A model generated the notes under the pieces. It ran no database searches. It saw nothing but the letters and a program-made list of their open reading frames with translations, and had not been told where the DNA came from. From Brachycybe producta (lineage: Eukaryota; Arthropoda; Diplopoda; Playtdesmida; Andrognathidae): 64,000 nt of DNA. A program made the position numbers and the translations under genes. The first letter of the stretch is position 1. Every line of letters starts with the position of its first letter. Shown here piece by piece: positions 28,024 to 47,433 of this stretch. The DNA is taken from the NCBI GenBank assembly GCA_036925085.1, contig JAUPFP010000010.1:1465278-1529277 (forward strand), given 5' to 3'.

Positions 28024-28170
28024 AGGGCGACTGCAGACGACAGATTATCGGTGACACAGGCAGTTCTGCCCAGCACTAACTGTTCGTTCGCCCCGCCCTT
28101 TTATGAGCGTCATCAATTTCAATCGGGTCGGTGGATGGTCCGTCTATTTAGTCGGGTGGACTCGGCCATG
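28024..28170. mobile_element. left part of a short repeat interrupted by the retroelement
   Basis: Begins AGGGCGACTGCAGACGACAG, which resembles 11188 onward (AGGGCGATCGCAGATGACAG). The remaining part is 47434-47444, ending GTTGCCCT, an imperfect inverse of the start. Without the insertion it would be about 158 bp. No target duplication is recognisable. Confidence 0.4.
28167..28170. repeat. target-site duplication CATG, left copy
   Basis: The four bases CATG directly precede the left LTR and recur directly after the right LTR. CATG is a palindrome. The duplication does not extend to five bases (CCATG versus CATGT). Confidence 0.85.
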
Positions 28171-30302: not shown

Positions 30303-30314
30303 TCCCTACCCCCT
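30303..30314 (-). promoter_or_regulatory. polypurine tract
   Basis: In element sense AGGGGGTAGGGA abuts the 3' LTR (next base T of TGT). This is the expected position and composition for the plus-strand DNA primer, which RNase H leaves uncut. Confidence 0.85.
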
Positions 30315-30565
30315 AAAATGTTACTTCTCTTTATCAATGTCAATACAAAATCCCTTTCAATCCCTTTAATTAACTTTATGTTTATTAAGTGTGTATAATC
30401 ATATCTTGTATGATTTCTAAGTCAGCTCAGATTTTCTTGCTATCATCTTTGTGATATTTTATGCAAGGGAATTTCTTCCGAATCAATTTTCATTGGATCA
30501 TTAAGACTTTACGTCTCACCAATATGATTCTGTCATCATTGCTGTTTTTTGTTTAGTATTCCTTT

Positions 30566-30769
30566 AGCCGACAGGATTATCTTCCATTATTTTGTCGACA
30601 GGATATACCCTTTTACATCATGTTTCCTATTTTCTCTTCACTTTACTTTTGCTTTGTCAACAGGATACTACTTCATTAGCCAACCGTTACATAGGTATTA
30701 GCATAATTTCTGCTTGGTTATATGGTCGACCGGATACACAGTCGATACAATTATATAGTCGACAGGATA
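30566..30769. repeat. five copies of GTCGACAGGATA-like motif, complementary to the primer site
   Basis: Plus-strand copies lie at 30567-30578 (GCCGACAGGATT), 30594-30605, 30656-30667 (GTCAACAGGATA), 30725-30736 (GTCGACCGGATA) and 30758-30769. In the RNA sense they read TATCCTGTCGAC and would pair with GTCGACAGGATT of the primer-binding site. The best copy gives 12 consecutive pairs (30757-30768). They look like fragments of the tRNA-Ser 3' end. Confidence 0.65.
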
Positions 30770-30883
30770 TCTCCAATAATATATAAGTAATATTAAAATA
30801 AGCCCTGTTTTTGTTAGATAATCAGGATACTACTAATATAATACTAGTTTATAAGCAACATCATTCTATGTTCTATATATAAA

Positions 30884-31135
30884 GTTCACATATTTTCTTG
30901 TTTCCTTCGACATCAATTTCATCTTTGTTTCTTTACTGTACCAATTCTATTTTCAAATTATTCTATGTTTTCCCTTCACTCTTCATTGGACATTAATCTC
31001 TTCATTTTTCTATTGTACCAATTCTATTTTCAAATTATTCTATGTTTTCTCTTCACTCTTCATTGGACATTAATCTCTTCATTTTTCTATTGTACCAATT
31101 CTATTTTCAAATTATTCTGTTTTCCCTTCACTCTT
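30884..31135. repeat. 77-bp tandem repeat in the 3' untranslated region, about three units
   Basis: Units start at 30961, 31038 and 31115 with TTCTATGTTTTCYCTTCACT, preceded by a divergent partial unit from about 30884. The first two full units are almost identical, so the array is recent. No coding or hairpin potential is seen. Confidence 0.85.
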
Positions 31136-31702
31136 CACTCTCAAAAATGTTACATCCTAACCATCAAATCTAACCTAATAACACCTTAAATTTCACATCT
31201 AAAAACACACTATTTCCATTAAGTCTCTACTCACAAATAAGTTCAGAAATTCAGTCTTTCGTGCCATCACACTTGGTCATCTTCATATCTTCGTGATGCC
31301 TTTAATCATATGGATTCCTGTGGTCTTCCACGCTGTCCATCTGCTGTCTTCTCTTAATTATTCTCAGAAGTCTTGAATTCTCTCTTCATTGATGTCTTGA
31401 TTCTTTTCATCTCTGATGTCTTGAATTTTTTCCTTCTTTCCAACCTTTATGATGTTTAGAAATCATCCATGTTCATCTTTTTGTGTGATGTCATGGGCTG
31501 ATCTTTTCTTTGATGTCTTTCTTTAAACTGTTTTAGAAGTCTTTTTTGGTACATTTTCACAGATTTTATCACCTGGTAAAATGTCACAACTTCTACAGTA
31601 TCGTTGTTGTAGATAATTCTTCTCGATGTATATTATAGATGCAATATTGAGAAAATAATTTTCTCCCTTTCACTGTTGTTTCATAGTGAAAGATGAGTAC
31701 AG

Positions 31703-34396: not shown

Positions 34397-34409
34397 TTCT
34401 TCCTTTTAT

Positions 34410-34424
34410 CTGAAATAAACAAAC
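34410..34424 (-). promoter_or_regulatory. candidate splice acceptor for env mRNA
   Basis: Element-sense TTTGTTTATTTCAG ends at 34410, 13 nt before the env ATG. Env of retroviruses and errantiviruses is normally translated from a spliced RNA, and this site fits that role. The matching donor, probably in the leader or early ORF region, was not pinned down. Confidence 0.5.
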
Positions 34425-34834
34425 TTCTCATCTCCTAAAACCAAATCATTATACACTTATAACAAATAGTTAATCAATTTCCTCAACATCTTTAAACAAC
34501 AATTTCAAACTCTTTAAAACAAAATCTCAATTCCTACAAACAATATTTCAATTTCATTAATCTCTTCTTCCTATATTCATTAGTAGTGGGTCTCCTGCCC
34601 CCTAAGCTTCTACTATTTCTATTAAATTCTTCTTTAGCATAATCTGTCAATCTTTACTAGCCTTTGTTGCTTTACAACAATTATTTTCCTAGCTTAGATC
34701 TTTAATGAGAACTTCTTTGATTCAATTTTATTTCTATACTCTCTTTTCAAAATATACTTATTTTCTCAACACTTAGACCGTCTATTTTTTTATCATTACT
34801 GTTTCAATCATTCTTAATTTTCCTTTTCATAATT

Positions 34835-35045
34835 CCGGACAGTCCGTCGTCCAACATTAATGTTTTAATTATTCTTATTTTCTTTTACTTATTTCCGGAC
34901 AGTCCGTCGTCCAACACTAATGCTTTAAATTATTCTTATTTTCTTTTACTTATTTCCGGACAGTCCGTCGTCCAACACTAATGCTTTAATAATTCCTAAT
35001 TTTCTTCTTTCATTATTCCAGACAGTCCGTCGTCTAACATTAATG
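34835..35045. repeat. four 60-62-bp tandem repeats in the pol-env spacer
   Basis: Units start at 34835, 34895, 34956 and 35018. Each begins with the conserved CCGGACAGTCCGTCGTCCAAC (last unit CCAGACAG...) followed by an AT-rich tail. Inside the core, CGGAC-A-GTCCG is a perfect hairpin palindrome. The 887-nt spacer has no ORF, so the GC-rich core repeated in AT-rich DNA may be a protein- or RNA-binding site. Confidence 0.85.
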
Positions 35046-35283
35046 CTTTAATTATTCTTATTTCTCTGTCATCTTTTTATCTTCATTAATTCAATAAACT
35101 ATTCATTTTTACTCATTAGTCGTTAAATATGGATAAGCTAACTCAATGTCATGTTGTCTAACAATTCATTAACAATATCAATACTTTGTCCGCTAATCTA
35201 AACTCAAACATTTTTTCTCAATTACATCTATTATTTATCATAACTTTTTCATCATTTTCCTTTCAATGACTACCTTAACCGAA

Positions 35284-38200
35284 TTATTTCTTACTCATTC
35301 TTTCTATCACACTTACTAATTTAAACATCTTGTCTAACAATTGTCCTGCTACATTATCTTCTGGCTCTTCTTGACCAGTTTTTCTAGTATCTTCTTCAAC
35401 TATAGAATCCTGTTCACTCTGAATTTCTTCTTCTGATGCACTAATTTCTTGGGATTCCGAAATACTTGGAGGATGTCTATCTTCCTCTTGGGTATCCCTA
35501 GAATTTCCTTTATTCAATATCTCTTGCAACTTTTTACGTAACCTTGCTAAACTCAAATCTCCTTCATCTTCAGATTTGCCTGGTTCAACTCTAGGTGGAT
35601 CTGGTAGTCTAGGTAATACTTCTGTCCTAGGTGTAATTCTTCTTGTTCTTACTGGTAATGGCGTAGCAAACTGTATGGAACCTTTACTTCGTAAATTATA
35701 ACCACTAGTACTGGGTACGGCTTCTGTGTTCCGAATAATTCCCTTAGGTGTCTTAGTATTTACTGTAGGTACCTTTTCACAACAATAATCAATTTTATCT
35801 GCATTGTCTTCATCATCTTCATCTGAACTTGAATTACTCGATTCACTAGGCCTTTTGCCTTTTCTGCTTTGTTCTTTAGGTTCTTTCACCTTTTCTGTAC
35901 AGTCCTCAATCTTTTCCCATGGATTTTTTCCTTTTACTACTCTTAATCTCTCTTCATGAACTATGTGTACATCTTTGTGTCTATACATGTGCTTTATCTC
36001 AAAATTAACAGGTGACGTTTGTCTAATGACTCGATAAGGACCTTTGTTCAACTTCGCTAATTTTTTCGTTTTACCTTGTGCTACTTGTGGTACATTCAAA
36101 TATACTTTTTCACCTACTTGTATTCCTTTATTTTTTCTTTTCTTTCCTTGATATCTAACTTGATTTTCTGCTGATTTTTCTAAACTCTCTTTTGCTATAT
36201 CATGTATCTTCTGCATCCTATTTGCCACTACCTTTCCATAGTCTTCAGTGTTGTACACTGGCTGAGGTTCATCTCCTATTAAATCAAATGGTAAATTCAT
36301 ATCCTGTCCAAACAATAAAAAATAAGGTGTCTCCTTAGTGCTTGAATGCATCGCACTACGATATGCCATCAATACTAATGGAAGTTCCTCATCCCAATTT
36401 CTTTGTGAACTATCAACATAATGTGATAACATTGTTGTTAGTGTCCTGTTGAATCTCTCAACTAAACCATCTGTTTGCGGGTGATATGCTGACGTAAAAA
36501 TCTTTTTAATTCCGAATGTCTCACACAGACTTTTCATAAGTTCAGACATAAAGTTTGCACCTCTGTCTGTTATTAGAGTCTGGGGACTACCATACCGTGA
36601 AATAATTTCTCTTACTAACAAATTTGCAATGGTTTCAGCTTTCTGATCTGGAATAGCAAATGCTTCTGGGTATCTTGTTAGATAATCACAAATAACTACA
36701 ATGTATTTATTTCCATTCTGTGTAGTAGGTAAAGGACCTAGTATATCCATTCCAATTCTTTCAAATGGTTTGGATGGTGCTGGGAACTTACATAATGGAC
36801 TTTTCCCATGTGGAATCTTTTTCTGATTACACGATACACAAGCTTCACAATATTGTTTCACATCTTTCTTTAAAGTTTCCCAATAAAATCTGTCTGCAAC
36901 TTTGCTTGTTGTTTTTTCAATACCAAAATGACCTGCTGTAATATTATCATGACACATTTTCAACACATAATTTCTTTTACTCAAAGGGACTACAGTTCTT
37001 AATTTATTTTCGGATCTTTTTACTAACCAACCTTTTGTATTTAATTCTAAACCCAACTTATCAACTTTTTCTTTTACCTTTTTATCTACTGGACAACCAT
37101 ATAAACATTCCATGAAAGATTTCAATTCTTCGCAATTTTCTTGATCTTTAGCAACCTCATGTTCTTCCCAAGTTTCTTGTTCATTTAACACATTTAATTC
37201 TTTGCTTTCTACAGGATTTCGACTCAAAGCATCTGCATTAGTATTCTCTTTACCTTTTCTATATAAAACCTCAAAATCATATTGTTGTAACTGTAATGCC
37301 CATCTAGTTAACATAGCTTTATCTTTTTTCATAGTCATCAAGTATTTTAATGGTTGATGATCTGTGATAAGAGTAAACTTTCTTCCCATCAAGTAATATC
37401 GAAAATAATTTACACCATAAACACATGCTAATGCCTCTTTCCATGTCGTAGAATAATTTTGTTCTGATTTGGTGAGCTTCCTACTCGCATAAGATATTGG
37501 GTGTAATTGACCGTCAATCTTTTGTTCGAGGATTGCCCCGATTGCTTCATTACTTGCATCAGTAGTCAAATAAAATGGTCTTTCAAAATTTGGCATTATC
37601 AAAACTGGATATGTAATCAAACATCCTTTTAATTTCTGAAAAGATTCTTCACAGTCTTTTGTCCAAAGAAATGGAGTATCTTTACTTAACAACTTTGTTA
37701 ATGGACCTGCTAAACTTGCACAATTTAGAATAAATTTTCTATAAAAGTTTACTAATCCCACAAAACTTTGTATTTTCTTGACACTTGTTGGTCTCGGAAA
37801 ATTTTCTACTGCTTCTACTTTCTTTCCACCTGGTTGGAATTTCCCTTGTGTAAATGTATGTCCTAGATAGTTTATTTCCTTCTGTAGGAACAAACATTTT
37901 GTTGGTTTTGCTTTTAAGTTTGCATTTCTAAGTCGCTCAAACACTAAATTTAACCTTTCATAATGTTCCTCTATAGTTTTACTGTATACAATAATATCAT
38001 CCATGTAAACAAAACAAATTTTCCCTTTCAAATCACCTAATACATTATCCATAAGTCTCTGATATACACTTGGAGATGTTTTTAGTCCCATTGGACATCT
38101 GTTGAATTCATAGTGTCCAAAAGGTGTACTAAAACCTGTTTTTGCTTTATCTTCTTCTGTTATGGGAATCTGGTAAAAACCACTTGCCATGTCTAAAGTA

Positions 38201-39096
38201 GAAAAATAAACAGCTTCTCCTAATTGATTACTTACTCCCAAAAGCTCTGGTAATGGATATTTATCACTAACTACCTTTAAATTCAATGCTCGATAATCAA
38301 CAACTAATCTTTGACTCCCATCTGGTTTTCCTATAAGCATGCACGGTGCTGAGTAAGGACTTAACGATGGTCTAATTATTCCTGCATCTAATAACTCATC
38401 AATTTTCTCTTTCATAACTTCTTCTGATTTCTGTGGCAACTTGTATGGTCGTATAAAAACTGGAACTTGATCCACCATGTGGATTTCTTGTTCAACAACA
38501 GGTGTCGGTTTCAGTTCTTTAAGTGAACCTGCAAATATATCATCATTTTTCTCCAAAAATTTTCTTAATTGATTCTGATTCTCTGTCTCCGTTTTACTTA
38601 CTACTTCTAATATCCATTCTTTATCTCCCTTTTTCTGCAACATATTAATCATTTCATTTTTCTCTAAACTTCTTGTCTTAATTTTCATCCCATTATAACC
38701 AATTACATCAAGCAAGGGTTCATATGTTAATCCTAACTGCTTTATCACATCTATGCCGAAAATCATCTGATATTTCTTTGGCAAATCTTCTGCACTCACG
38801 TATAAAGGAACCTTTTCCACTTTCTCTGCTGTAATACGTACGGGTATTTCATATAATCCCTTTGTACGAAACGGTGTACCATTCGCTGTGGTAATTATAA
38901 CCTTAGCTTGATCAGTGATAGGCTTTATATCTCGTGATTTCCGTCCTTTTATCTTTTCAAATAAGGATTTGGAAATTATCGATATTCCTGCTCCTGTGTC
39001 ATATAGAATCTTTATCAGATTGGTTTTCGACTGAGCTAAAAAGATAGGACATGTTGTGTCATTCAGAATGTTTAATGTGACGCGGTTTTCATACAT
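35284..39096 (-). CDS. pol: Pol polyprotein: protease, reverse transcriptase, RNase H, integrase
   Basis: 1,270 residues from the first ATG; likely made as a Gag-Pol frameshift product, so the true N-terminus may be slightly longer. The aspartic protease DTGA is at 33-36. RT spans about 220-420, with LDMASGFYQI at 301-310 and YMDD at 364-367. RNase H has acidic residues D513, E554, D579 and D622. Integrase has an HHCC zinc site (H716, H723 region; C750, C753) and the catalytic triad D784, D844, E880 with the canonical 35-residue D-E spacing. A GPY/F module lies at about 1019-1034. No chromodomain is seen. About 210 acidic and serine-rich residues follow, a long tail for this family. All catalytic residues are intact, so activity is plausible. 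Confidence 0.97.
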   Translation of the reverse strand: MYENRVTLNILNDTTCPIFLAQSKTNLIKILYDTGAGISIISKSLFEKIKGRKSRDIKPITDQAKVIITTANGTPFRTKGLYEIPVRITAEKVEKVPLYVSAEDLPKKYQMIFGIDVIKQLGLTYEPLLDVIGYNGMKIKTRSLEKNEMINMLQKKGDKEWILEVVSKTETENQNQLRKFLEKNDDIFAGSLKELKPTPVVEQEIHMVDQVPVFIRPYKLPQKSEEVMKEKIDELLDAGIIRPSLSPYSAPCMLIGKPDGSQRLVVDYRALNLKVVSDKYPLPELLGVSNQLGEAVYFSTLDMASGFYQIPITEEDKAKTGFSTPFGHYEFNRCPMGLKTSPSVYQRLMDNVLGDLKGKICFVYMDDIIVYSKTIEEHYERLNLVFERLRNANLKAKPTKCLFLQKEINYLGHTFTQGKFQPGGKKVEAVENFPRPTSVKKIQSFVGLVNFYRKFILNCASLAGPLTKLLSKDTPFLWTKDCEESFQKLKGCLITYPVLIMPNFERPFYLTTDASNEAIGAILEQKIDGQLHPISYASRKLTKSEQNYSTTWKEALACVYGVNYFRYYLMGRKFTLITDHQPLKYLMTMKKDKAMLTRWALQLQQYDFEVLYRKGKENTNADALSRNPVESKELNVLNEQETWEEHEVAKDQENCEELKSFMECLYGCPVDKKVKEKVDKLGLELNTKGWLVKRSENKLRTVVPLSKRNYVLKMCHDNITAGHFGIEKTTSKVADRFYWETLKKDVKQYCEACVSCNQKKIPHGKSPLCKFPAPSKPFERIGMDILGPLPTTQNGNKYIVVICDYLTRYPEAFAIPDQKAETIANLLVREIISRYGSPQTLITDRGANFMSELMKSLCETFGIKKIFTSAYHPQTDGLVERFNRTLTTMLSHYVDSSQRNWDEELPLVLMAYRSAMHSSTKETPYFLLFGQDMNLPFDLIGDEPQPVYNTEDYGKVVANRMQKIHDIAKESLEKSAENQVRYQGKKRKNKGIQVGEKVYLNVPQVAQGKTKKLAKLNKGPYRVIRQTSPVNFEIKHMYRHKDVHIVHEERLRVVKGKNPWEKIEDCTEKVKEPKEQSRKGKRPSESSNSSSDEDDEDNADKIDYCCEKVPTVNTKTPKGIIRNTEAVPSTSGYNLRSKGSIQFATPLPVRTRRITPRTEVLPRLPDPPRVEPGKSEDEGDLSLARLRKKLQEILNKGNSRDTQEEDRHPPSISESQEISASEEEIQSEQDSIVEEDTRKTGQEEPEDNVAGQLLDKMFKLVSVIERMSKK

Positions 39097-39134
39097 TCTC
39101 CCCCATTGACGCGTTCTATTCTTTGAAGGAGTTT

Positions 39135-40346
39135 CTAGTTTTCCGTCCTACCATTTGCTTGATTTCTTCGAACCTGATTCCCTGGGTTCTGTCTTGCTCC
39201 TAATCTACAAACATTTGCAAAATGACCTTGCTTTCCACATTTAAAACATACTATGGGTTCACTTTGTCTTTGGACTTGTTTCATTCTACAATCCTTTGCA
39301 TAATGACCCATCTTCCCACAATTATAACATCCTTGGCCTCTCTGCCTTTCAATCTGCACATTTCTCTGTGTATTTCCAAAATTAGGAGCTCTACCATTAG
39401 GCTGAAAAGCTTGTGGCTGATTCCAATTTGGTTGTGGGTAACTCGGATTTCTCCATTGCTGTGGAATTGTTGGTTTTGACCAACACTCATTAGCATAATG
39501 TCCTCTCTTGTGACATCTGAAACATTCAACATTTCGTTTATCCATCCTTTGATTACTTCCTTCCTCTTTCTTGGCATTCTCTTGAGCCTTTATTTTTTCT
39601 TGAAACTTCTGGTCCAATACTGCAATGTCTTTTGTTCTCTGAGCATCCAATTGCTTTAATTTCTCTTCAAATTTCTTCAGCATCTCCTTTTCTTCAGTAA
39701 TCGTCTCTAGCACATTTATTCCATATTTCGCATGAACCAACTTCTCATTTTCTTCTTCCGCTAGAATGATTCTGATTGTTTCGTTCAAATCAGCAGGATT
39801 CCGTGAAAGTACAAATCTTTTTATTCTTGGATGCAATCCTTTGATGATTTGATTTTGTATCATTCCATCTCTGACTGCTATCTGGTCGGCACTGGGATTT
39901 TCCTCGGTGAAGGCTCTTCCTCTGGTCTTTACTCTGGAAATATACTCAATAGCGCTTTCCGTGTTGCTCTGTTTTTCTTCTAAAAACTTCTGCATTGATA
40001 CCAACTTAGGTTCGATTGGCTCGAATCTTTGTATCATCAATGCTTTTAACTCCTCAATTGAGTTTATCTGTCTAATGCTTGGATGATCTCTGAAAAATTC
40101 CGCAGCAGGACCTCTGCACTTGGATTTTATCAGAATGATCTGAAACTCTTCTGTCCATCTTGCTAAATTAGCTACACCTTCTATTTGCTCGAAAAACTCT
40201 TTGGCGGATGGTCCTTTCTCATCCCCAGAAAAATATGGAATTAACCCTGTGTGATGCATGTTAAGATTCGTATTTGCGTTACCTTCTGCACCACCATTGG
40301 AGTTACCGACTTCTCCATCATTGGAAGCCATTTTGTCTTCTTCCAT
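39135..40346 (-). CDS. gag: Gag polyprotein with three zinc knuckles
   Basis: 403 residues from the ATG at 40346. Residues about 35-200 have the helical capsid character of the Ty3/gypsy retrotransposon gag family (a W-x-E-F motif near 64 and an F-L-E-E-K segment near 121). A charged coiled-coil-like stretch follows (about 213-260). Three CCHC knuckles of form C-x2-C-x4-H-x4-C follow, at 275-288, 340-353 and 367-380, which bind genomic RNA during packaging. Three knuckles is more than the one or two usual in this group. A glutamine/proline/asparagine-rich linker separates the first knuckle from the others. The stop (39137-39135) lies in a short overlap with the pol frame. No stop or frameshift damage is seen. 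Confidence 0.95.
   Translation of the reverse strand: MEEDKMASNDGEVGNSNGGAEGNANTNLNMHHTGLIPYFSGDEKGPSAKEFFEQIEGVANLARWTEEFQIILIKSKCRGPAAEFFRDHPSIRQINSIEELKALMIQRFEPIEPKLVSMQKFLEEKQSNTESAIEYISRVKTRGRAFTEENPSADQIAVRDGMIQNQIIKGLHPRIKRFVLSRNPADLNETIRIILAEEENEKLVHAKYGINVLETITEEKEMLKKFEEKLKQLDAQRTKDIAVLDQKFQEKIKAQENAKKEEGSNQRMDKRNVECFRCHKRGHYANECWSKPTIPQQWRNPSYPQPNWNQPQAFQPNGRAPNFGNTQRNVQIERQRGQGCYNCGKMGHYAKDCRMKQVQRQSEPIVCFKCGKQGHFANVCRLGARQNPGNQVRRNQANGRTEN
39138..39144 (-). promoter_or_regulatory. candidate -1 frameshift site at the gag end
   Basis: The heptamer G-GAA-AAC lies directly before the gag TAG. The pol frame is -1 relative to gag and stays open upstream only to 39147, so the two overlap by about 13 nt and a shift must occur here. 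The A-site part fits the X-XXY-YYZ rule (AAAC), but the P-site part (GAA to GGA) is imperfect. Pol could instead start at the ATG at 39096. Confidence 0.4.
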
Positions 40347-40377
40347 CTAATTTCCAAACAACTTTTAATTTTAATCT

Positions 40378-40677
40378 TTAATCTTCCCCTTCTAAGTCTC
40401 TTTGTACGAAAAAATCTATTCTTTCCTGTGTTTTTGCGGGGTGACCTAAGCGGGACAAATACTCATTAAAATCTATCAATTCTCTAACTGCTTTTTCATA
40501 TGAACATGCAACTCTCCCAAATGCTATCTCTGGGTAATTTCTTTTATCAAAATGCCTATAATGTGTAACACACTTCCACCTATAATCTTGTCTATGATGG
40601 TGACACTGTGTTTTGAAACAATTTTTTAGTTCAGGACACCTATAAACCTTATCTTGATCACTAAAATTCTCGCTCAT
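40378..40677 (-). CDS. accessory ORF 10, single CPx4C...Cx2H protein, type a
   Basis: 99 residues. CPELKNC, 15 residues (rich in H and C), C-V-T-H-Y-R-H-F lies at about 14-42, followed by DKRNYPEIAFGR and a helical C-terminus. It is the paralogue of ORF 3. It is the last accessory ORF; its stop is 31 nt upstream of the gag ATG, so gag would be the eleventh cistron on an unspliced RNA. That makes splicing, reinitiation or internal entry necessary for gag expression. Confidence 0.8.
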   Translation of the reverse strand: MSENFSDQDKVYRCPELKNCFKTQCHHHRQDYRWKCVTHYRHFDKRNYPEIAFGRVACSYEKAVRELIDFNEYLSRLGHPAKTQERIDFFVQRDLEGED

Positions 40678-40710
40678 TATTCTAAATTATTTTCTGACAA
40701 TAAAACTTCT

Positions 40711-40947
40711 TTATCTAAATCGTTCAATATCTATTTCTGACTCTATGGAATATTCATCTAATTCATGCAATAATTCATTTAATGAGGTTAACAACTGTTT
40801 AACACGAAGCCAAAGTTCATATTCTTCTACTTGAAAAGCTCTATGATGTGTGAGACACACATAAATGTTCTCTATTTCTGTTAAATCAATAATATCACAA
40901 CTAAACCTTAAGGGACACCATGGTAATAATTCTAAATCAACACTCAT
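40711..40947 (-). CDS. accessory ORF 9, single CPx4C...Cx2H protein, type b
   Basis: 78 residues. LPWCPLRFSC, 13 residues, C-L-T-H-H-R-A-F is followed by EYELWLRVKQLLTSLNELL and an acidic tail. It is the closest match to ORF 7. It lies 42 nt after ORF 8 and 33 nt before ORF 10, so it is the middle of a c-b-a set that resembles the earlier b-a pair of ORFs 2 and 3. Confidence 0.82.
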   Translation of the reverse strand: MSVDLELLPWCPLRFSCDIIDLTEIENIYVCLTHHRAFQVEEYELWLRVKQLLTSLNELLHELDEYSIESEIDIERFR

Positions 40948-40989
40948 TTTATTAAGAATTCAAACAAACACGCTTTTTTCCTTTATTTT

Positions 40990-41349
40990 TTATACTCCCA
41001 AATGTTCATTAAATATCTTTTGATGAACTGCACATTGATACTGTTTAGGCCAAGTTTTTGGTGAAATTAAGACAAAAAAGCATTCGTCATGCAATGGACA
41101 ATGATTACCAATTCTATCTGTTAATAACTGAAGTTCTTCTAAGGGACTTTTACACTTAGTCTCAAAAATTACTCTGTTTACATTAGGATTTATACCACAC
41201 ATGTATAGATACTCAGGAAATGCAAAATTTACGTTGTGGACTTCGCATGTTACAAATTCTTGAAAATCTTCGTGTACTATACTACAACTTTTCCCAAAAG
41301 GACATCTATTGGCATCTCGTTCCCTTTTCCTTTGTATGCTTAAATCCAT
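40990..41349 (-). CDS. accessory ORF 8, two-motif CPx4C...Cx2H protein, type c
   Basis: 119 residues, the same length as ORF 6. A basic N-terminus (RKRERDANR) precedes CPFGKSC-x12-C-E-V-H (about 16-38). The second motif is CPLHDEC-x15-C-A-V-H (about 84-109), with F after both histidine segments. The basic start could act in nucleic-acid binding or nuclear import, but this is inference. All eight motif Cys/His ligands are kept despite strong divergence elsewhere, which argues for selection on the protein. Confidence 0.82.
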   Translation of the reverse strand: MDLSIQRKRERDANRCPFGKSCSIVHEDFQEFVTCEVHNVNFAFPEYLYMCGINPNVNRVIFETKCKSPLEELQLLTDRIGNHCPLHDECFFVLISPKTWPKQYQCAVHQKIFNEHLGV

Positions 41350-41408
41350 ACCCTTTAAATATCACTCATTAATAAACCATAATATTTTCTGTCTATAACT
41401 GGAATTCT

Positions 41409-41633
41409 TTATACACTTTCTTCTTCTTCTATTCTTATGAAAAAGCTATATATATCTTGCAATAGTTCACCTAGTGTTGTCAATAATGTTCTAACTTGAA
41501 GCCAATTTTCGTATTCTTCTATCTGAAAAATTCTTTGGTGTGTAAGGCAAGCATATGTGTTATCTATGTTTCTTCTATCAATTATTACACAATTAAGTCT
41601 TATAGGACACCATGGTAATACATTTAAGTCCAT
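41409..41633 (-). CDS. accessory ORF 7, single CPx4C...Cx2H protein, type b
   Basis: 74 residues. LPWCPIRLNC, 13 residues, C-L-T-H-Q-R-I-F is followed by EYENWLQVRTLLTTLGELL, nearly the same as ORF 9 and similar to ORF 2. The C-terminal half is a leucine-rich helix, perhaps for dimerisation, with an acidic end. Together with ORF 6 upstream it forms a c-b pair that is repeated as ORFs 8 and 9. Zinc binding and partner binding are inference. Confidence 0.82.
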   Translation of the reverse strand: MDLNVLPWCPIRLNCVIIDRRNIDNTYACLTHQRIFQIEEYENWLQVRTLLTTLGELLQDIYSFFIRIEEEESV

Positions 41634-41640
41634 ACCCCTT

Positions 41641-42000
41641 TTACATACGGATTACATTAAAAAGAGCATCAATTACGGTTCCGTGTATAATGCACTGGAA
41701 TTCCCTTGGAGCTTCGTTTTGTGTGATGGCTACAAAGGCACAATTCCTAGCATAAGGACACGATTCCCATCTACTTATAATTATTCTTCGAATGTCTTCC
41801 TCAGTGTCTTGATCAGTACAATCAACAACAGCTTGTATCGGGAAATAACCTTGATTAGCACACCTGTATACGTAATCTGCAGGTAAATACCAGAATTTAT
41901 GGGTGAGGCATTCAATCCGTCCTATAGATCGATGAAACTTAGTAATACAATCTGGTCCTATGGGGCACTGTAACCTATTCGTTTGATAATCCTCACTCAT
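41641..42000 (-). CDS. accessory ORF 6, two-motif CPx4C...Cx2H protein, type c
   Basis: 119 residues with two copies of the motif. The first is CPIGPDC-x12-C-L-T-H at about 12-34, the second CPYARNC-x15-C-I-I-H at about 81-106. The linker contains a short acidic stretch (DCTDQDTEED). It has exactly the same length and architecture as the ORF at 41349-40990. Two motifs about 70 residues apart suggest two small zinc-stabilised domains. Only seven nt separate it from ORF 7, too few for independent promoters, so it shares a transcript with its neighbours. Confidence 0.82.
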   Translation of the reverse strand: MSEDYQTNRLQCPIGPDCITKFHRSIGRIECLTHKFWYLPADYVYRCANQGYFPIQAVVDCTDQDTEEDIRRIIISRWESCPYARNCAFVAITQNEAPREFQCIIHGTVIDALFNVIRM

Positions 42001-42010
42001 ACTAAATATC

Positions 42011-42220
42011 TTAACTTTCTTTCTTTTCCTCTTCCTTTATTACCTTCAACTTCAAATTACTTGTCTCTTTAATTATAATTTTCTCTGGGATTTTTTCTGT
42101 CTGATACCAGGTATCATGTACAAAACACTTAACTCGACCACTTTCTCGAAAAAATCTTACAATGCAATAAGGACCTATTGGGCACTGTGGTATGTTCCTA
42201 CTAGTGTCTTCTAAGTTCAT
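42011..42220 (-). CDS. accessory ORF 5, truncated relative of the two-motif type
   Basis: 69 residues. The motif CPIGPYC, 12 residues, C-F-V-H-D-T-W-Y closely matches the first motif of ORF 6 (CPIGPDC ... C-L-T-H-K-F-W-Y), including the GR before the third cysteine. The second motif is absent, replaced by a lysine/glutamate-rich tail (about residues 45-69). It is therefore probably a shortened duplicate of ORF 6. It overlaps ORF 4 by 20 nt at its start and ends 10 nt before ORF 6. Confidence 0.75.
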   Translation of the reverse strand: MNLEDTSRNIPQCPIGPYCIVRFFRESGRVKCFVHDTWYQTEKIPEKIIIKETSNLKLKVIKEEEKKES

Positions 42221-42401
42221 GCTTTTTTACTGATAAAATTTCCAACTTATCTTTCAAGTCACGATTACTTTGAATGTATTCAGTTTGAAAATGATTAAGA
42301 TGACAAACACACTTCACCAAATTATCTCTTTTCTTTATAATAAAAACACAATTTAAACTAAATGGACAAGTTATACTTACTAAAGATTTTTTTCTACACA
42401 T
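42201..42401 (-). CDS. accessory ORF 4, short CPx4C...Cx2H protein
   Basis: 66 residues with a basic N-terminus. The motif CPFSLNC, 12 residues, C-V-C-H lies at about residues 12-34, followed by a charged helical tail rich in K, E and R. It overlaps the next ORF by 20 nt in another frame. It is the most divergent single-motif member, closest in spacing (x12) to ORF 5 and to the first motif of ORFs 6 and 8. Overlap with a well-conserved neighbour makes a real, compactly encoded gene likelier than chance. Confidence 0.7.
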   Translation of the reverse strand: MCRKKSLVSITCPFSLNCVFIIKKRDNLVKCVCHLNHFQTEYIQSNRDLKDKLEILSVKKHELRRH

Positions 42402-42416
42402 AATCTTTACTTCTTC

Positions 42417-42707
42417 TCAATTCCTGCTATTGAAAAAGTTTTTGATTTCAACCAGATTTGGATGTATGATAAATTGTCCAATATATTCACAAAATTCACT
42501 ATATTCTATACTTGCTTCTAAATTGTTTGATCCAGGTCTTCCTAGTGCAACAAATGGGTAATCTCTAATATCAAACAGGTAATTGTGGCTCATACACTTC
42601 CACATATATGAATTGTCTGAGAAATCTGGAGCTCTGAAACAAATATTACTATAAGGGCATACAAAATCATTGGTTGAGGATACCTCGTATTCATCCACAA
42701 AACTCAT
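42417..42707 (-). CDS. accessory ORF 3, single CPx4C...Cx2H protein, type a
   Basis: 96 residues. The motif CPYSNIC, 14 residues, C-M-S-H lies at about residues 17-41. It is followed by FDIRDYPFVALGRP and a helical C-terminus ending IKNFF. The ORF at 40677-40378 has the same plan (DKRNYPEIAFGR, then a helix ending RIDFF), so the two are duplicates. It starts inside the stop codon of the previous ORF and lies 15 nt before the next. Zinc binding is inferred from the conserved ligands; the function is unknown. Confidence 0.8.
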   Translation of the reverse strand: MSFVDEYEVSSTNDFVCPYSNICFRAPDFSDNSYMWKCMSHNYLFDIRDYPFVALGRPGSNNLEASIEYSEFCEYIGQFIIHPNLVEIKNFFNSRN

Positions 42708-42943
42708 ATTTCAAATCCTACAAAATCAGTGGAATATCCATCTAATATCTGCCATAAATCGTGGACGGAAACAATTAATTCTTTAGCATTCATCCAAATA
42801 TTATATTCGGCACCCTCAAATGTTCTCAAATGTGTAGTACATACAAAAATAACATCAATGTCACTCAAGTCAATGATATTACACTCTGGTCTTAATGGGC
42901 ACCAGGGTAATATGCAAATGTCCTGCAACATGCACTCATCCAT
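42704..42943 (-). CDS. accessory ORF 2, single CPx4C...Cx2H protein, type b
   Basis: 79 residues from the ATG at 42943; the frame opens slightly earlier but only with a TTG. It contains LPWCPLRPEC, 13 residues, then C-x2-H, followed by a leucine-rich helical tail (EYNIWMNAKELI). The four ligands are spaced like a zinc site, although the spacing C-x5-C-x13-C-x2-H is not a standard CCCH finger. It is clearly paralogous to the ORFs at 41633-41409 and 40947-40711, sharing LPWCP, IID, C-x-TH-x-R-x-F and EY-x2-W. Its TGA stop overlaps the next ATG as ATGA, a layout typical of stop-restart translation. Confidence 0.8.
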   Translation of the reverse strand: MDECMLQDICILPWCPLRPECNIIDLSDIDVIFVCTTHLRTFEGAEYNIWMNAKELIVSVHDLWQILDGYSTDFVGFEI

Positions 42944-42979
42944 AAACAAATTTTCTTAACCTTACATATATAATCACCT

Positions 42980-43399
42980 TTAAACGTGATATGGCAATCC
43001 GTCGTCTGCCAATCGTTCGTCCTGTGGCTCCGGTGGTTCTCTTTCCACGGGAGACGAAGGAGGTGCGATGAAACCAGCAAGATCCGATCTCACGTTAAAG
43101 ATTGGAGTTCCGTGAAGATAAAATTGTGCCACTCCACTCTCCAAAAAATGTACCGGACTTGGTATCGGACTTGGTATTGAACTCGGTGTTGGGCTCACCG
43201 GAGACGGCAAGCTAAATCGTACCGACTGGTAACCCGCCAACGGTCTTAGGTTAGCCAAGAGTAAGTGATACGCTAATTCCGCCTCGTCGATGAATCTTTC
43301 TCGTCGCTCTCGGTACTCTTCCTCCGTTATAATTCTAGGGGAAACTCTGCACACTGGCTTAAAATTGTTCAGTTTACGGTCTTCTGGTGCTTCGGCCAT
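42980..43399 (-). CDS. accessory ORF 1, proline/serine-rich 139-aa protein of unknown function
   Basis: The first ORF after the leader, 139 residues. It is the only accessory ORF without the C-P-x4-C / C-x2-H motif. The N-terminal half is charged and probably helical (residues about 25-50, rich in E and R). The middle is a low-complexity stretch of PSP and IPSP repeats (about 65-82), and the C-terminal third is acidic and proline-rich with PPSSP and PPEP. The DNA is clearly richer in G+C than the neighbouring ORFs, which suggests a separate origin, perhaps host capture. A splice acceptor lies three bases before the ATG; 36 nt separate it from the next ORF. No family is recognised. Confidence 0.75.
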   Translation of the reverse strand: MAEAPEDRKLNNFKPVCRVSPRIITEEEYRERRERFIDEAELAYHLLLANLRPLAGYQSVRFSLPSPVSPTPSSIPSPIPSPVHFLESGVAQFYLHGTPIFNVRSDLAGFIAPPSSPVEREPPEPQDERLADDGLPYHV

Positions 43400-43402
43400 A
43401 AC

Positions 43403-43416
43403 CTGGAAAAGAGCAT
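43403..43416 (-). promoter_or_regulatory. candidate splice acceptor before the first accessory ORF
   Basis: Element-sense TGCTCTTTTCCAG followed by G, with the ATG of the first accessory ORF three bases further on. This near-consensus acceptor would place that ATG as the first codon of a spliced mRNA. Confidence 0.45.
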
Positions 43417-43755
43417 TATTACGATTCTTTCATCCCCCCAAACACTCTAATAAGGCCCATTAATCGATTACCTAATTAATCAATTAATTACTTTATGCGC
43501 AATTATGTATGCAATTTTGTATGGGAGCGTGCGTATGTGTGTTGGGAGCAAATCTTAAAAACAAGTACAATACAAAAACAATTTGCAAAACAATTGAAAC
43601 AAAACAACTCAGGCAATATGACTTAATTTAATCATGCACTTAATAGGCCACTTAATATCTTTTAGGACCCCCAAAAATCTTGATCAAAATCAATAATAAT
43701 GTACTCAACATATCCACTCACAACAACAATATGGGTAAACCTAAGAATCTTCCAG

Positions 43756-43789
<34 letters not shown>

Positions 43790-45153
43790 CATTAAACCAT
43801 TAATTGACTTGCAAATTTCATTATCTTCTAACCCCAAAGTATTTTAACCATGATAAGATGAACACAAAGATAAATGAGGTCTCTAGCAGTAATATCTACC
43901 TCCTCCCAATCAAATCCTCTAAACCAGAACAAGTCAGTTAACTTTATGCAACAATACACTAACAATTTCCAGCTCATTTCTTTGTTCACCAGTAAGTATT
44001 TTTATTTAACCCCAGAATGCTTTAATTGCCCATAAAGCAATAAAGAAATAAGCAATCTCTTCGATTGCTATTTCTATGTTTGTCCAGTCCAATTCTTGTA
44101 CTAGACAAACCTCGACAATTTTGGTAAAAATGAAACAAAACAGTCTTAGATACATAAAATAAAAAGGTTTTAGTTGCAAACAATAATTCTCCTATAGTAA
44201 CCCAAAAAAATAATATTTTGCAGGGTTCTACAATTTTAATAAAGATTAAATACTAAACACAAAAATTCAAAACTCATTAAGATACAAATAATTTTCAAAA
44301 TTTTGAAAATAATCCCATTTAAGTTGTGAAAGATCTTCTAGTATCTTTTAGCCACAAATGTTATTTGATATAATTAATTCCAAAATAAGCAATCAGTTGA
44401 ATTCCTCAAATAACCCTAATTAATCCAAACCCAAAAATTTTTTAGTTTTTCTGAATTAGCCAATTCACACATTAACAAATAAGATATTCCACACTTAATG
44501 AAGCAAATCAATTAACTTTTCTCAAAATTCAATTAATTTTCTCATGTTAATCGCAATTCCAATTCACCCCTAAAAAATTACAATTAAAATTCATAAAATA
44601 TCTCAATCAGCTTTCTAAAAATCAATTCTCCCTAGAACATGCAAATTATTCTCAGTTTTACTTCATAAATTAATCCAACTCTGTCTATCACTCAATACTC
44701 ATTTCTTTAACCTCTTTGTTCATCAATTTTAAAACAAGGTAAGCATGCACAATTTATTCTGTAATCCAAAAAAAAATTTTTTCATGTATTCACTTTTTAG
44801 ATCCCAATCAACATAATCTAATAACTTCAATTAACTTTGACCATATAAGCTTCAAAACAACTCAATTGTCTCAACTGAACTTCTTTAAAATAACCCAACT
44901 GTTAACCAAAGCAACTAATGAATTATTTAAACACCAAACAAATAAAAAAAAAATCAATCCAACCCAATTGAACTTAAACTAATTTTATTTATCCAAATTT
45001 AGCCCAACCAAATAATAGGAAAAAGACAATACACTTCAATAAAATACACTCTAAAAATCAAATTGCCATCCCAAAACCCCAACTAATGTTCCAATTGCTT
45101 TGCCACAAAACTTTCTAATAAAACAATTCAACCACCCAACCGATTTTTTAACT
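43403..45153 (-). other. long non-coding leader between primer site and first accessory ORF
   Basis: About 1.75 kb of very AT-rich sequence with no plausible ORF and a run of 30 T at 43760-43789 (poly-A in the element sense). Packaging signals would be expected here. It may be removed from some mRNAs as an intron, because it ends in a good splice acceptor at 43403. No matching donor was identified with confidence. Confidence 0.7.
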
Positions 45154-45172
45154 AATCCTGTCGACTGCGCCA
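45154..45172 (-). promoter_or_regulatory. primer-binding site, tRNA-Ser type
   Basis: Five bases inside the 5' LTR, the element sense reads TGGCGCAGTCGACAGGATT. Its complement ends in CCA after a G discriminator base. It contains CGACTGC, which would pair with a GCAGTCG acceptor 5' strand, and an AATCC T-arm segment, as in tRNA-Ser. The Drosophila 17.6/297 group is known to use tRNA-Ser, so this supports errantivirus-like priming. The host tRNA itself is not in this window. Confidence 0.85.
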
Positions 45173-45507
45173 CTTTTTGTAAGTTTCCGTTTTCACGGCT
45201 ATCACAGTGGTGTTCTGTGATTCCCCTTTCAGCCAAATAGTACCTATTGGGTTTAGGGTTCGACCCTCCCAGCCAATGAAGGCTTATGTAGGGAATGGGT
45301 TTTGTAGTTTATCAGTGAGTGGTAGTAATTTTTTAATTTTCTTGGACTGGGCCTAATAAAGATAACAAGAGTTGTTAACCTTACCTTAAATGGCTTCTTG
45401 TTGTCTTCGGAGAATTTTAGCTTCTTGAAAACACTTTCCTGGTCTCAGACTCAAAATCCAAATTTCATGAAAAACCAAACTCTTAGGTTTAATTCTCAAA
45501 ACACTTC

Positions 45508-45856
45508 ACAAACTCAACTCAAAACAACTCTAAGTCCAAATGACTTCACAAACTCAATTCAAAATAATTCTAAGTCCAAATGACTTCACAAACTCAATTC
45601 AAAATAATTCTAAGTCCAAATGACTTCACAAACTCAATTCAAAATAATTCTAAGTCTAAATGACTTCACAAACTCAATTCAAAATAATTCTAAGCCAAAT
45701 GACTTCACAAACTCAATTCAAAATAATTCTAAGTCCAAATGACTTCACAAACTCAATTCAAAATAATTCTAAGTCTAAATGACTTCACAAACTCAATTCA
45801 AAATAATTCTAAGTCCAAATGACTTCACAAACTCAATTCAAAATAATTCTAAGTCC
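45508..45856. repeat. 40-bp tandem array in the 5' LTR, nine units
   Basis: The unit begins ACAAACTCAATTCAAAATAA and ends TCCAAATGACTTC. The first unit is divergent and the fifth is one base short. The 3' LTR has six units. Reverse transcription should make both LTRs equal, so the difference arose after or during insertion, by slippage or template switching. Confidence 0.95.
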
Positions 45857-46031
45857 AATTCTTTAAATTTCTTCTAAGTCTCATCCTCTAAATTTCTTCT
45901 AAGGTCTTTCTTCTTTCTTTTTACTAAATCTATAACATATGTCCTCTCTTCTAGAACTCCAATGTAGGACTCTCTCTAGAATACGATGTTCATCGCATCT
46001 TGTTTAGTCAGAAATGAATTTTAAGTATTCT

Positions 46032-46072
46032 GATTGGTTAGAATTAATTTTCTAAAATTAAAATAACCAATC
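46032..46072. promoter_or_regulatory. inverted pair of CCAAT boxes in the 5' LTR
   Basis: GATTGGTTA and TAACCAATC form 9-bp inverted arms around a 23-bp AT-rich spacer. The 3' LTR has the same at 28905-28945. NF-Y-type factors bind CCAAT in either orientation, so this may be a promoter element, or simply a small hairpin. Confidence 0.35.
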
Positions 46073-46687
46073 GGTCAACTGGCTTTTGATCTTCTTCTAC
46101 GAACATCTGCCTAATATGCATCCGGTCGTAAAATTACAATTTGGATTTTTTATAAATTTTTTACGATCGTCGATACATACTGTTATTTCCACTAACCGTC
46201 ATTTTCTATGAATTAGTATAGTTAACCTTTTAACTTTTCATCGAAAGTTTTAGTTTTCGGCAACTCATAACATTTCATTTGAATGACTAACATTCCCAAT
46301 GTTCCTTTATTTGGTTTTCTAGGCCCTCCGAAATGTATTTCTATTTAAATACGATTTTGGCCCTTTTACCCCTACTCTGTTGAGAACCCTAACATCATAC
46401 AACTCTTTCGCTACTTGTCGGTACCTCTTTTGGGTTATGTTTGACTTCACATATTGTTCCATTCATTTCATTATACTCATTCATAAGTTTCCTCTCTATA
46501 GTCTTCAATATACTCTATATATTATTAACGGCCCTTTTCTTAATGTGTTGAGAACCTGTTATGTGCTTTACTTTTTCTTTTAAACTTTTTATTACTTTGC
46601 TGTTTTGCATATTGAAGAGAGTGTATGGTAAAAAGTATCTTGTTACACTTTTTCCATCCCTTCTTTCTTTTTATTTTTTTTCTATAA

Positions 46688-46695
46688 TGACGTCA
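46688..46695. promoter_or_regulatory. CRE-like palindrome TGACGTCA in the 5' LTR
   Basis: A perfect CREB/ATF-type octamer about 735 bp from the U3 end; the 3' LTR has the same site at 29561-29568. Binding by bZIP factors is known for this octamer; its use here is inference. Confidence 0.4.
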
Positions 46696-47429
46696 TAATT
46701 ATTTGTAAAACAGGTGGTCTTCTACCGTGTGAGTATGAAGTATAAACCATATGTTTTTCTTCTTTAAGTGTCACATTTAAACTTTTTCATTGTTCAACTT
46801 TACTTTTCTCTTATTTTACACTCCACTAGGTAATCAGATTATATCAGGTTAATTAACCACTTCATCTATCTATCTATTACACTTTATAGTATGTTTTCCA
46901 CTCTTTTCATTCTTTAATTACATTTAATTTTGTAAAAAAGTTTTTATTTAACATGGTACACTTATTTGGGCTCACCCTTCTAAAGTGTGTGTGGGTGGGT
47001 TTAGTCTTTCTATTTCCCCCCTCTCTTGTTTTCTTTAAAAACTTTTTATTACTTTTTACTTGTGTGGGTGGGTTTCTTTTTTGTTTCCCCCCTTTCTTTG
47101 ACTTTCTTCTTGCTTCATCATTCTCTTATGGGTGGGTGGGTTTCTTTTACTTTTTTCAGCCTCTCCCTTTTTTGCCTCTGTTTACTATGAGTGTGTGTGT
47201 GTGGGTGTGATTCATTCATACTTTATCCACCCCCTCTTTTACTACTACTTTCCCGCCATTTTTTATTTCCTCATTTTTTCTTCTCTTTTTTACTTCTCTT
47301 TCATTGTTTCTCTTTCTAGCTCCGCCTCTTTCTCTTTTTACTTTATTTTAATTTTCTCTTTTACTAATTTCTGCCCCTCTTTCAAATTATTGTTAGGTGT
47401 TGCTTTACTTATTTTTTCAACACCTAACA

Positions 47430-47433
47430 CATG
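47430..47433. repeat. target-site duplication CATG, right copy
   Basis: Matches 28167-28170. A 4-bp duplication is what integrases of the errantivirus lineage usually make; many other Ty3/gypsy elements make 5 bp. Confidence 0.85.

Follow-up and report, generated by a model that had tools for sequence, protein, structure and literature searches.

We examined a 64,000-nucleotide stretch of the genome of the millipede Brachycybe producta (assembly GCA_036925085.1, contig JAUPFP010000010.1, positions 1,465,278 to 1,529,277; hereafter the window), which contains a whole Ty3/gypsy element on its minus strand. Upstream of the gag gene of this element lie nine motif-bearing open reading frames (ORFs) in a row (40378–42949, minus strand), of 99, 78, 119, 74, 119, 69, 66, 96 and 81 residues for ORF1 to ORF9 (Table 1). 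We scanned the six-frame translation of the whole window for the strict motif CPx4C-x12..16-CxxH and found 11 occurrences, all of them inside the block and on the minus strand, with middle spacings that actually ranged from 12 to 15 residues. The residue four positions after the histidine is aromatic in 10 of the 11 modules and isoleucine in the remaining one, and the columns C, P, C, C and H, and no others, are invariant across the 11. Chance or an AT-rich artefact as the source of the motif was rejected, as no motif arose in 300 shuffles of the block that preserved dinucleotides, nor when the residues of the ORFs were shuffled 2000 times. An earlier reading of this DNA, made from its letters and ORF translations (the original prediction), had described nine consecutive ORFs of 66–119 residues upstream of gag in a Ty3/gypsy element, with eleven motif copies, spacings of 12–15 residues and an aromatic residue four positions on in nearly all of them; all of this was borne out. 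It had also set the limits of the block at 40378 and 43399, of which the start stands and the end overshoots, since ORF10, which reaches to 43399, is motif-free.

Table 1 Features of the Ty3/gypsy element and its pre-gag block, in window coordinates.
Feature	Position	Strand	Remarks
ORF10	42980..43399	-	139 aa; without zinc motif
ORF9	42704..42943	-	W-type module protein; 81 residues open, 79 aa from first ATG
ORF8	42417..42707	-	YP-type module protein, 96 aa
ORF7	42201..42401	-	Single-module basic protein, 66 aa
ORF6	42011..42220	-	Single-module protein, 69 aa
ORF5	41641..42000	-	Two-module protein, 119 aa
ORF4	41409..41633	-	W-type module protein, 74 aa
ORF3	40990..41349	-	Two-module protein, 119 aa
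ORF2	40711..40947	-	W-type module protein, 78 aa
ORF1	40378..40677	-	YP-type module protein, 99 aa
Whole Ty3/gypsy element	28171..47429	-	19,259 bp; two long direct repeats, TG...CA ends
Target site duplication CATG	28167..28170 and 47430..47433		Flanks the element on both sides
5' long terminal repeat (LTR)	45178..47429	-	2252 bp
Primer-binding site TGGCGCAGTCGACAGG	45157..45172	-	5 nt past 5' LTR; read from sequence
Leader ORF A	44006..44155	-	49 aa, hydrophobic (hydropathy computed)
Leader ORF B	43828..43977	-	49 aa, hydrophobic (hydropathy computed)
3' splice-site-like CTCTTTTCCAG/GTT	43400..43420	-	3 nt before ORF10 ATG; site 43402; rank 1/1116
gag	39135..40346	-	403 aa; zf-CCHC in two stretches, Retrotrans_gag weak
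pol	35284..39096	-	1270 aa; order protease, reverse transcriptase, RNase H, integrase
3' splice-site-like TTTGTTTATTTCAG	34409..34430	-	13 nt before env ATG; site 34409; rank 3/1116
env	31703..34396	-	897 aa; Phlebovirus_G2 fusion glycoprotein 2e-29, G1 weak
Polypurine tract AGGGGGTAGGGA	30303..30314	-	Precedes 3' LTR; read from sequence
3' LTR	28171..30302	-	2132 bp

A family of small cysteine- and histidine-containing modules

The block contains W-type (ORFs 2, 4 and 9), YP-type (ORFs 1 and 8), two-module (ORFs 3 and 5) and single-module (ORFs 6 and 7) ORFs. Profiles of these types were aligned with hhalign, which gave E-values of 8e-5 for two-module versus W-type (probability 61%), 5e-4 for YP-type versus W-type (31%) and 1e-4 for two-module versus YP-type (56%). 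At the level of sequence profiles, these comparisons show that the nine ORFs are built from one homologous module family. The ligands were also invariant in further module alignments, with the exception of a mid-ORF slice of locus L022 which begins past the first cysteine, and the C, C, C and H ligands of each module probably bind zinc. The types differ in isoelectric point (pI): the W-type proteins are acidic (4.1–4.7 in all six measured alone), the YP-type proteins range from 4.3 to 7.0 (five measured) and the S7-type proteins are basic (8.9–9.8 in all four element families described below).

We compared the module ORFs to collections of known families. Nothing exceeded the curated cut-offs of Pfam-A, nor those of NCBIfam for the seven of the nine window ORFs searched there (ORFs 4 and 9 were left out), and the best E-values in Pfam and NCBIfam (about 0.01–0.05) were scattered over different families. 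Profile searches of the PDB returned weak matches or none. The PBZ zinc finger of APLF, to which the YP-type profile had a weak match (E 0.14), was rejected as a relative; its ligand spacing is CX5CX6HX5H, which differs from the CPx4C-x12-15-C-x2-H of the modules. In the AlphaFold models, short strands surround both pairs of ligands, and a helix follows in three of four modules. No convincing match for the module family thus came from Pfam, NCBIfam or the PDB, and the profile searches suggested in the original prediction assigned its ORFs to no known family over a cut-off.

Copies of the block, related families and selection

On contig C1 of the genome, TTAGG arrays lie close to the start, and a query of four TTAGGG units matched nothing, so that the host is probably an arthropod. 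A search of the genome (295 Mb in 442 contigs) with ORF5 found 87 places, including 18 with 87–100% identity over the whole or nearly the whole query and no stop codon. Of these close copies, one of which is the window's own, 11 kept all 11 modules, five kept 10 and one kept 9, while the rearranged copy L018 has only 3 modules left. The original prediction that the ligands are kept in every copy is thus correct for the 11 modules of the window, whereas only 11 of the 18 close genomic copies keep all 11. Under a strict length test, ORF5 was intact in 18 of 18 close copies, ORFs 2, 3 and 6 each in 17, ORF9 in 16, ORF1 in 14, ORF8 in 13 and ORF4 in 12.

We also fetched 19 diverged loci. Seven were decayed or partial (L029, L032, L033, L035 and L037–L039) and the others represent three further families in which the block likewise precedes gag: F2 (L021 and L027), F3 (L022–L026) and F4 (L028, L030, L031, L034 and L036). 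Counting F1, the family of the window element, four families of this genome therefore carry the zinc block upstream of gag. ORF types are arranged differently from one family to the next, and F3 shows an in-frame fusion of a W-type with a YP-type ORF (200 aa in L022). A single-copy oddity was rejected by the 18 close copies and the three further families. A host gene family was likewise rejected, as 47 of the 59 clusters of selected matches hold at least two gene types; the other 12 comprise nine lone W-type or YP-type matches and three Bcl-2-like ones (53–55% class, contrast set). It should be noted that the clustering input was a selection, from which repeat matches of one locus were excluded and which included 11 of 146 Bcl-2 matches. 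The protein collection that we searched is silent on other animals, because gag itself found only one weak relative in it.

In codon comparisons across families, the proportion of synonymous differences (pS) exceeded that of nonsynonymous differences (pN) in all 46 pairs of zinc ORFs, which are non-independent pairs. These pairs had protein identities of 27–53% and pN of 0.27–0.50, compared with 57–67% and 0.20–0.29 for gag across the six family pairs concerned; the zinc ORFs are thus under constraint, though they are less conserved than gag. The ratio of nonsynonymous to synonymous rates (omega) between W-type paralogues of the window was 0.49 for ORF2 and ORF4 and 0.25 for ORF2 and ORF9. ORF10 differed from its counterparts in L017 and L018 by synonymous to nonsynonymous counts of 30/10 and 37/14 (omega 0.09 and 0.08), and L017 and L018 each have an in-frame stop in ORF10. 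On this codon-level evidence, the zinc block is real coding sequence.

The ORFs might conceivably be passive duplicated sequence which hitch-hikes in the element without a function. Several of them are broken in some close copies and ORF5 and ORF4 have a high recent omega over few changes, which would suit such debris. It is already contradicted by the open frames and ligands which are retained between families at a synonymous divergence (dS) of 0.8 or more, and by the excess of pS in 46 of 46 pairs, and we find it barely credible. The selection on the proteins that had been predicted is upheld by the same 46 pairs, and the block as a whole had neither an omega near 1, nor absence from related elements, nor stops in most copies, the findings which had been named as able to overturn that prediction.

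A Bcl-2-like gene in the block of a related family

The F4 block also encodes a 157-aa Bcl-2-like protein (L030:2940-3413), which is flanked by a single-module ORF on one side and a W-type ORF on the other and is also found in L028, L031 and L034. Against the Pfam Bcl-2 profile it gave an E-value of 1.9e-5 and 25.6 bits, which is below the curated cut-off of 31.4. All 60 of the PDB matches listed (the best 60 of 92) belong to the Bcl-2 family, with a top E-value of 0.0023, and omega was 0.18–0.25 in the three of three copies which could be compared. The gene was found at 146 places in the genome.

Three other Bcl-2-like families which we examined (L040–L042) lie in a different kind of element. 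The Bcl-2 protein of L042 is over the Pfam cut-off (42.6 bits), that of L040 is below it (21.3 bits, E 4.2e-4), and L041 has two diverged tandem Bcl-2-like copies, neither of which matches the Pfam Bcl-2 profile. The L042 locus encodes an A32-type ATPase, and an rve integrase was found further along in L044 (one of the five ORFs given matched), so that L042 and L044 hold the combination of rve integrase and A32-type packaging ATPase by which Maverick/Polinton elements are recognised. Other ORFs of L042 and L044, which we take from motifs picked out by eye to resemble PolB, a hexon-type capsid protein and an adenain protease, had no Pfam match, and the PolB-like one had no PDB match. L040 and L041 bear homologues of the genes neighbouring Bcl-2 in L042 (BLASTP E 8e-24 to 1e-77).

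The F4 Bcl-2-like protein is 52–54% identical to that of L040, its closest relative among those compared, while the L040 and L042 proteins share 31%. These Maverick/adintovirus-type loci (L040–L042 and L044) differ from the retroelement in being DNA elements with an A32-type ATPase and an integrase, and the strict zinc motif was absent from all six frames of the four loci. Judging by these comparisons, the Bcl-2-like gene may have moved into the retroelement out of a Maverick-type DNA element; this seems the simpler direction, because the compared copies from DNA elements are the more diverse.

A GTSF1-like gene and the contents of the pre-gag slot

Searching the genome with the Pfam Phlebovirus_G2 profile gave 83 env places; these are counts of places rather than elements, and some elements are counted twice. 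Two env-bearing loci were read upstream. In L045 gag starts similarly to that of the window element and has no ORF block in front of it, while L046 carries a 153-aa ORF (L046:4635-5096), and the strict zinc motif was absent from the six frames of both. The sole PDB match of the L046 ORF was Gametocyte-specific factor 1 (GTSF1; 6x46, E 1.3e-5), in an alignment which covers the CHHC finger and the tail PPxxEDWDKEI, and a profile of five GTSF1-like proteins again had 6x46 as its sole PDB match (2.3e-4). Among these five proteins the finger is of CHHC type in L046 and L053 and CCHC-like in L048, L050 and L051; the EDWDKE tail is kept in three and a second motif, [ST]E[ND]WE, in all five.

GTSF1-like ORFs were found at 42 genome places, among them L046 and L048–L056. 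At 13 of the 42 an env match follows downstream at no more than 14 kb on the same strand, and at eleven of these the distance is 6.5–7.2 kb. In L048 the GTSF1-like ORF stops 33 nt before the gag ATG; the position before gag was read at two loci and the other places were assigned by distance to env. Upstream of the 83 env places we found the zinc block in 32 cases, a GTSF1-like ORF in 13, both in none and neither in 38, using for the zinc block a selected list with one place per locus (n = 50).

The first ORF of families F2–F4 (L021:2665-3006, L022:1763-2449 and a frame upstream in L028 and L030) has a CHHC-finger-like pattern, CPWx4C..HxxxC. In the one pair compared, this ORF had no significant match to a GTSF1-like ORF.

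Anatomy and expression signals of the element

The element in the window has three separate open ORFs for gag, pol and env, and its pol domain order, gag zinc knuckles and LTRs place it in the Ty3/gypsy group (Metaviridae). The pol protease profiles were just under their cut-offs and the remaining gag and pol domain profiles were over them. Errantivirus, the env-bearing gypsy group of insects with a baculovirus F-type env, was ruled out, as the env here is of phlebovirus type; beyond Phlebovirus G2 and G1 no further family matched it at E 0.01. The primer-binding site is presumably tRNA-Ser-like. The two LTRs align with no mismatch over 2132 bases and with 120 gap columns, the length of three 40-bp tandem repeat units. 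Given the identical LTRs and the open frames, the insertion appears to be recent.

The 40-bp tandem repeat lies at 28496–28731 and 45503–45858, and its three additional units in the 5' LTR are the sole difference between the LTRs. The region between pol and env has tandem repeats of 61 bp that include a short GC-rich core (34794–35067), and the long stretch past env has others of 77 bp (30922–31152).

The gag gene (start at 40346) is preceded by a 1.8-kb leader and ten ORFs. Two short leader ORFs, A and B, are alike (BLASTP E 4.7e-8 in a single comparison with composition correction off) and both end in K[AI][FL]WG. A query from leader ORF B (43828–43965) found 25 genome places, 23 of them stop-free. 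Splice-like sites were scored with our own weight matrices, which use sequence only, across the 1116 AG sites in the internal region of the window element. The best-ranked acceptor-like site directly precedes ORF10 and another highly ranked one precedes env (Table 1), while the top donor-like site in the stretch from the 5' LTR to pol lies inside the 5' LTR at 45384. A splice-like site is also found 3 nt before the first ORF of L021, where it ranks 3 of 304. The ORFs of F1 are tightly packed, with gaps of 36, -4, 15, -20, 10, 7, 59, 42, 33 and 31 nt; the 4-nt overlap, of the ORF9 stop with the ORF8 start, is at a W-to-YP junction which overlaps by 4 nt in F4 as well.

Discussion

We propose that the zinc block is an accessory cassette of an env-bearing Ty3/gypsy endogenous retrovirus which blunts host defences and occupies a slot whose contents are exchanged, a proposal to which we give about an even chance of being correct. 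In this proposal the modules would have multiplied through tandem duplication. A spliced mRNA, with its donor in the 5' LTR and its acceptor at 43402, would serve as a polycistronic message for the module ORFs and ORF10, in which overlapping stop and start codons may permit coupled translation. Each module would fold around one zinc ion, forming a small scaffold whose variable surface could bind a different host protein, and jointly the module proteins would blunt host responses, above all cell death and silencing by PIWI-interacting RNAs (piRNAs), by sequestering or redirecting host factors. Poxviruses use families of small paralogous proteins against host factors. The pre-gag slot itself would be exchanged among several kinds of content (a zinc block, a zinc block with Bcl-2, a GTSF1-like gene or nothing), as an arms race leads one to expect, and we infer that it is an exchangeable counter-defence cassette.

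The original prediction had suggested retroviral-style accessory factors acting on host defence, RNA export or transcription. Accessory factors fit the results, and the Bcl-2-like and GTSF1-like genes of the relatives favour the host-defence branch over the other two: two kinds of slot content resemble host cell-death and silencing factors, and the zinc family evolves faster than gag. Host-defence antagonism is therefore the likeliest job of the zinc proteins in our opinion, held with a confidence that is evenly balanced.

It is somewhat unlikely that the module proteins are instead replication cofactors which would target the RNA or Gag of the element itself, in export of unspliced RNA from the nucleus, packaging or the control of translation, as CERV of Cer1 does in C. 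elegans. The cysteine loop of the accessory protein of Cer1 is needed for export of the genomic RNA in the account that we cite in part (PMC10309623), the S7-type proteins are basic in four families, and the long leader, the likely splicing and the position of gag behind ten ORFs all call for an export system. However, a single task would hardly need as many as nine ORFs of one module family, the acidic pI of the W-type proteins speaks against nucleic-acid binding for that type (the basic S7-type leaves it open) and that of the YP-type proteins is not above 7.0, and the env-bearing relative L045 has a similar gag start and no such block before gag.

We consider it improbable that the proteins are nuclear regulators, which would drive the LTR or select the tissue of expression by binding to chromatin, DNA or transcription factors. 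Such a role would have a parallel in sORF1 of the 412 element, which lies upstream of gag, has about 110 aa and is nuclear according to the part of the source cited here (PMC11952523). Zinc modules are common in regulators of this kind, but the module proteins had no significant match to a DNA-binding family, the W-type proteins are acidic, and the relatives' Bcl-2-like and GTSF1-like genes point elsewhere. Even less probable, and indeed very doubtful, is that they are small structural or membrane-active proteins aiding particle assembly or fusion, like the FAST-like sORF2 of the MDG1 group. That protein is also encoded by a small ORF before gag, and the hydrophobic leader ORF B is open in nearly all of its places, but the element already has a fusion glycoprotein of phlebovirus type.

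Several observations weigh against host-defence antagonism by an exchangeable cassette. Neither a Bcl-2-like nor a GTSF1-like match was found in the window element, so that function is argued from its neighbours. Both AlphaFold models of the modules are weak (mean predicted local distance difference test scores of 62 and 64) and had no good match in the PDB or the viral library. The basic S7-type proteins could bind RNA instead. In close copies ORF10 and ORF7 were intact in 9 and 7 of 18, respectively, by the strict length test; the recent omega of ORF5 was 0.62 and 0.94 against L017 and L018, and that of ORF4 was 1.23, from six changes only. The splice-like site directly before the first ORF of L022 ranks just 11 of 217, and in F4 (L030) no first ATG is closely preceded by such a site. 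The GTSF1-like proteins match no Pfam model and have one finger where GTSF1 has two. No env match was found downstream of 29 of the 42 GTSF1-like places or of 19 of the 50 zinc loci, and neither gene lies upstream of 38 of the 83 env places (of which L045 was read).

The likeness of the relatives' pre-gag ORF to GTSF1/Asterix lies in the CHHC finger and the PPxxEDWDKE-like tail, and it concerns relatives only and not the window element. GTSF1 is described as a PIWI cofactor which binds PIWI through central tryptophans, in the part of the work cited here (PMC9385479). The one-finger form of the proteins encoded by the elements would suit a competitor.

Precedents exist both for small pre-gag ORFs and for Bcl-2 in Ty3/gypsy elements. 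The original prediction knew of no Ty3/gypsy element with such a block and mentioned only plant Ogre/Tat elements, which also have an extra ORF upstream of gag; this ORF is not known to be a tandem zinc-module family. There are closer precedents than these. Elements of the Drosophila MDG1 group (412, Mdg1 and Stalker) have two small ORFs before gag which are under selection and translated, the first possibly encoding a nuclear regulator and the second a FAST-like protein with one membrane span and a polybasic region (PMC11952523, cited in part). They resemble the window element in having selected small ORFs upstream of gag in a Ty3/gypsy element. They differ from it in that there are two such ORFs, with no zinc modules, env or splicing described in the cited part of that source (PMC11952523), whereas the window element has ten block ORFs and two leader ORFs, an env and a strong splice-like site.

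The planarian Burro elements are also large and Gypsy-like, with env homology and with BCL2, BIR and TRAF-type domains which are thought to meddle with host systems, as stated in the part of the report cited here (PMC6431247). In Burro these domains belong to one huge ORF1 polyprotein in which env lies between gag and pol (PMC6431247, same part), unlike the window element with its separate small ORFs before gag, its separate gag, pol and env and its unmatched module family. Cer1 of Caenorhabditis is likewise an LTR retrotransposon with an extra cysteine-finger protein, CERV, but this is a single spliced protein of 517 aa which has exons in common with gag, and no tandem family appears in the cited part of that study (PMC10309623). 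We found no tandem zinc-module block before gag in searches of an open-access library, none of which was aimed at a retroelement-borne GTSF1.

A broader version of our proposal seems possible to us, though it falls distinctly short of an even chance: there may be a clade of arthropod Ty3/gypsy endogenous retroviruses with a swappable slot, filled by a GTSF1 mimic which disables piRNA silencing, by a Maverick-derived Bcl-2 or, as in the window element, by multiplied zinc modules of a new family with a similar job. To our knowledge, few proteins of animal retrotransposons are known to fight the piRNA pathway or cell death, and if this version is true, an anti-piRNA arsenal would be encoded by the retroelement itself. 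The sharing of the Bcl-2-like gene points towards genes moving between retroelements and Maverick-type DNA elements that live in one host. Within one genome the slot alternates between a GTSF1-like gene and the zinc family, which may or may not be accompanied by a Bcl-2-like gene, and this makes the counter-defence idea directly testable.

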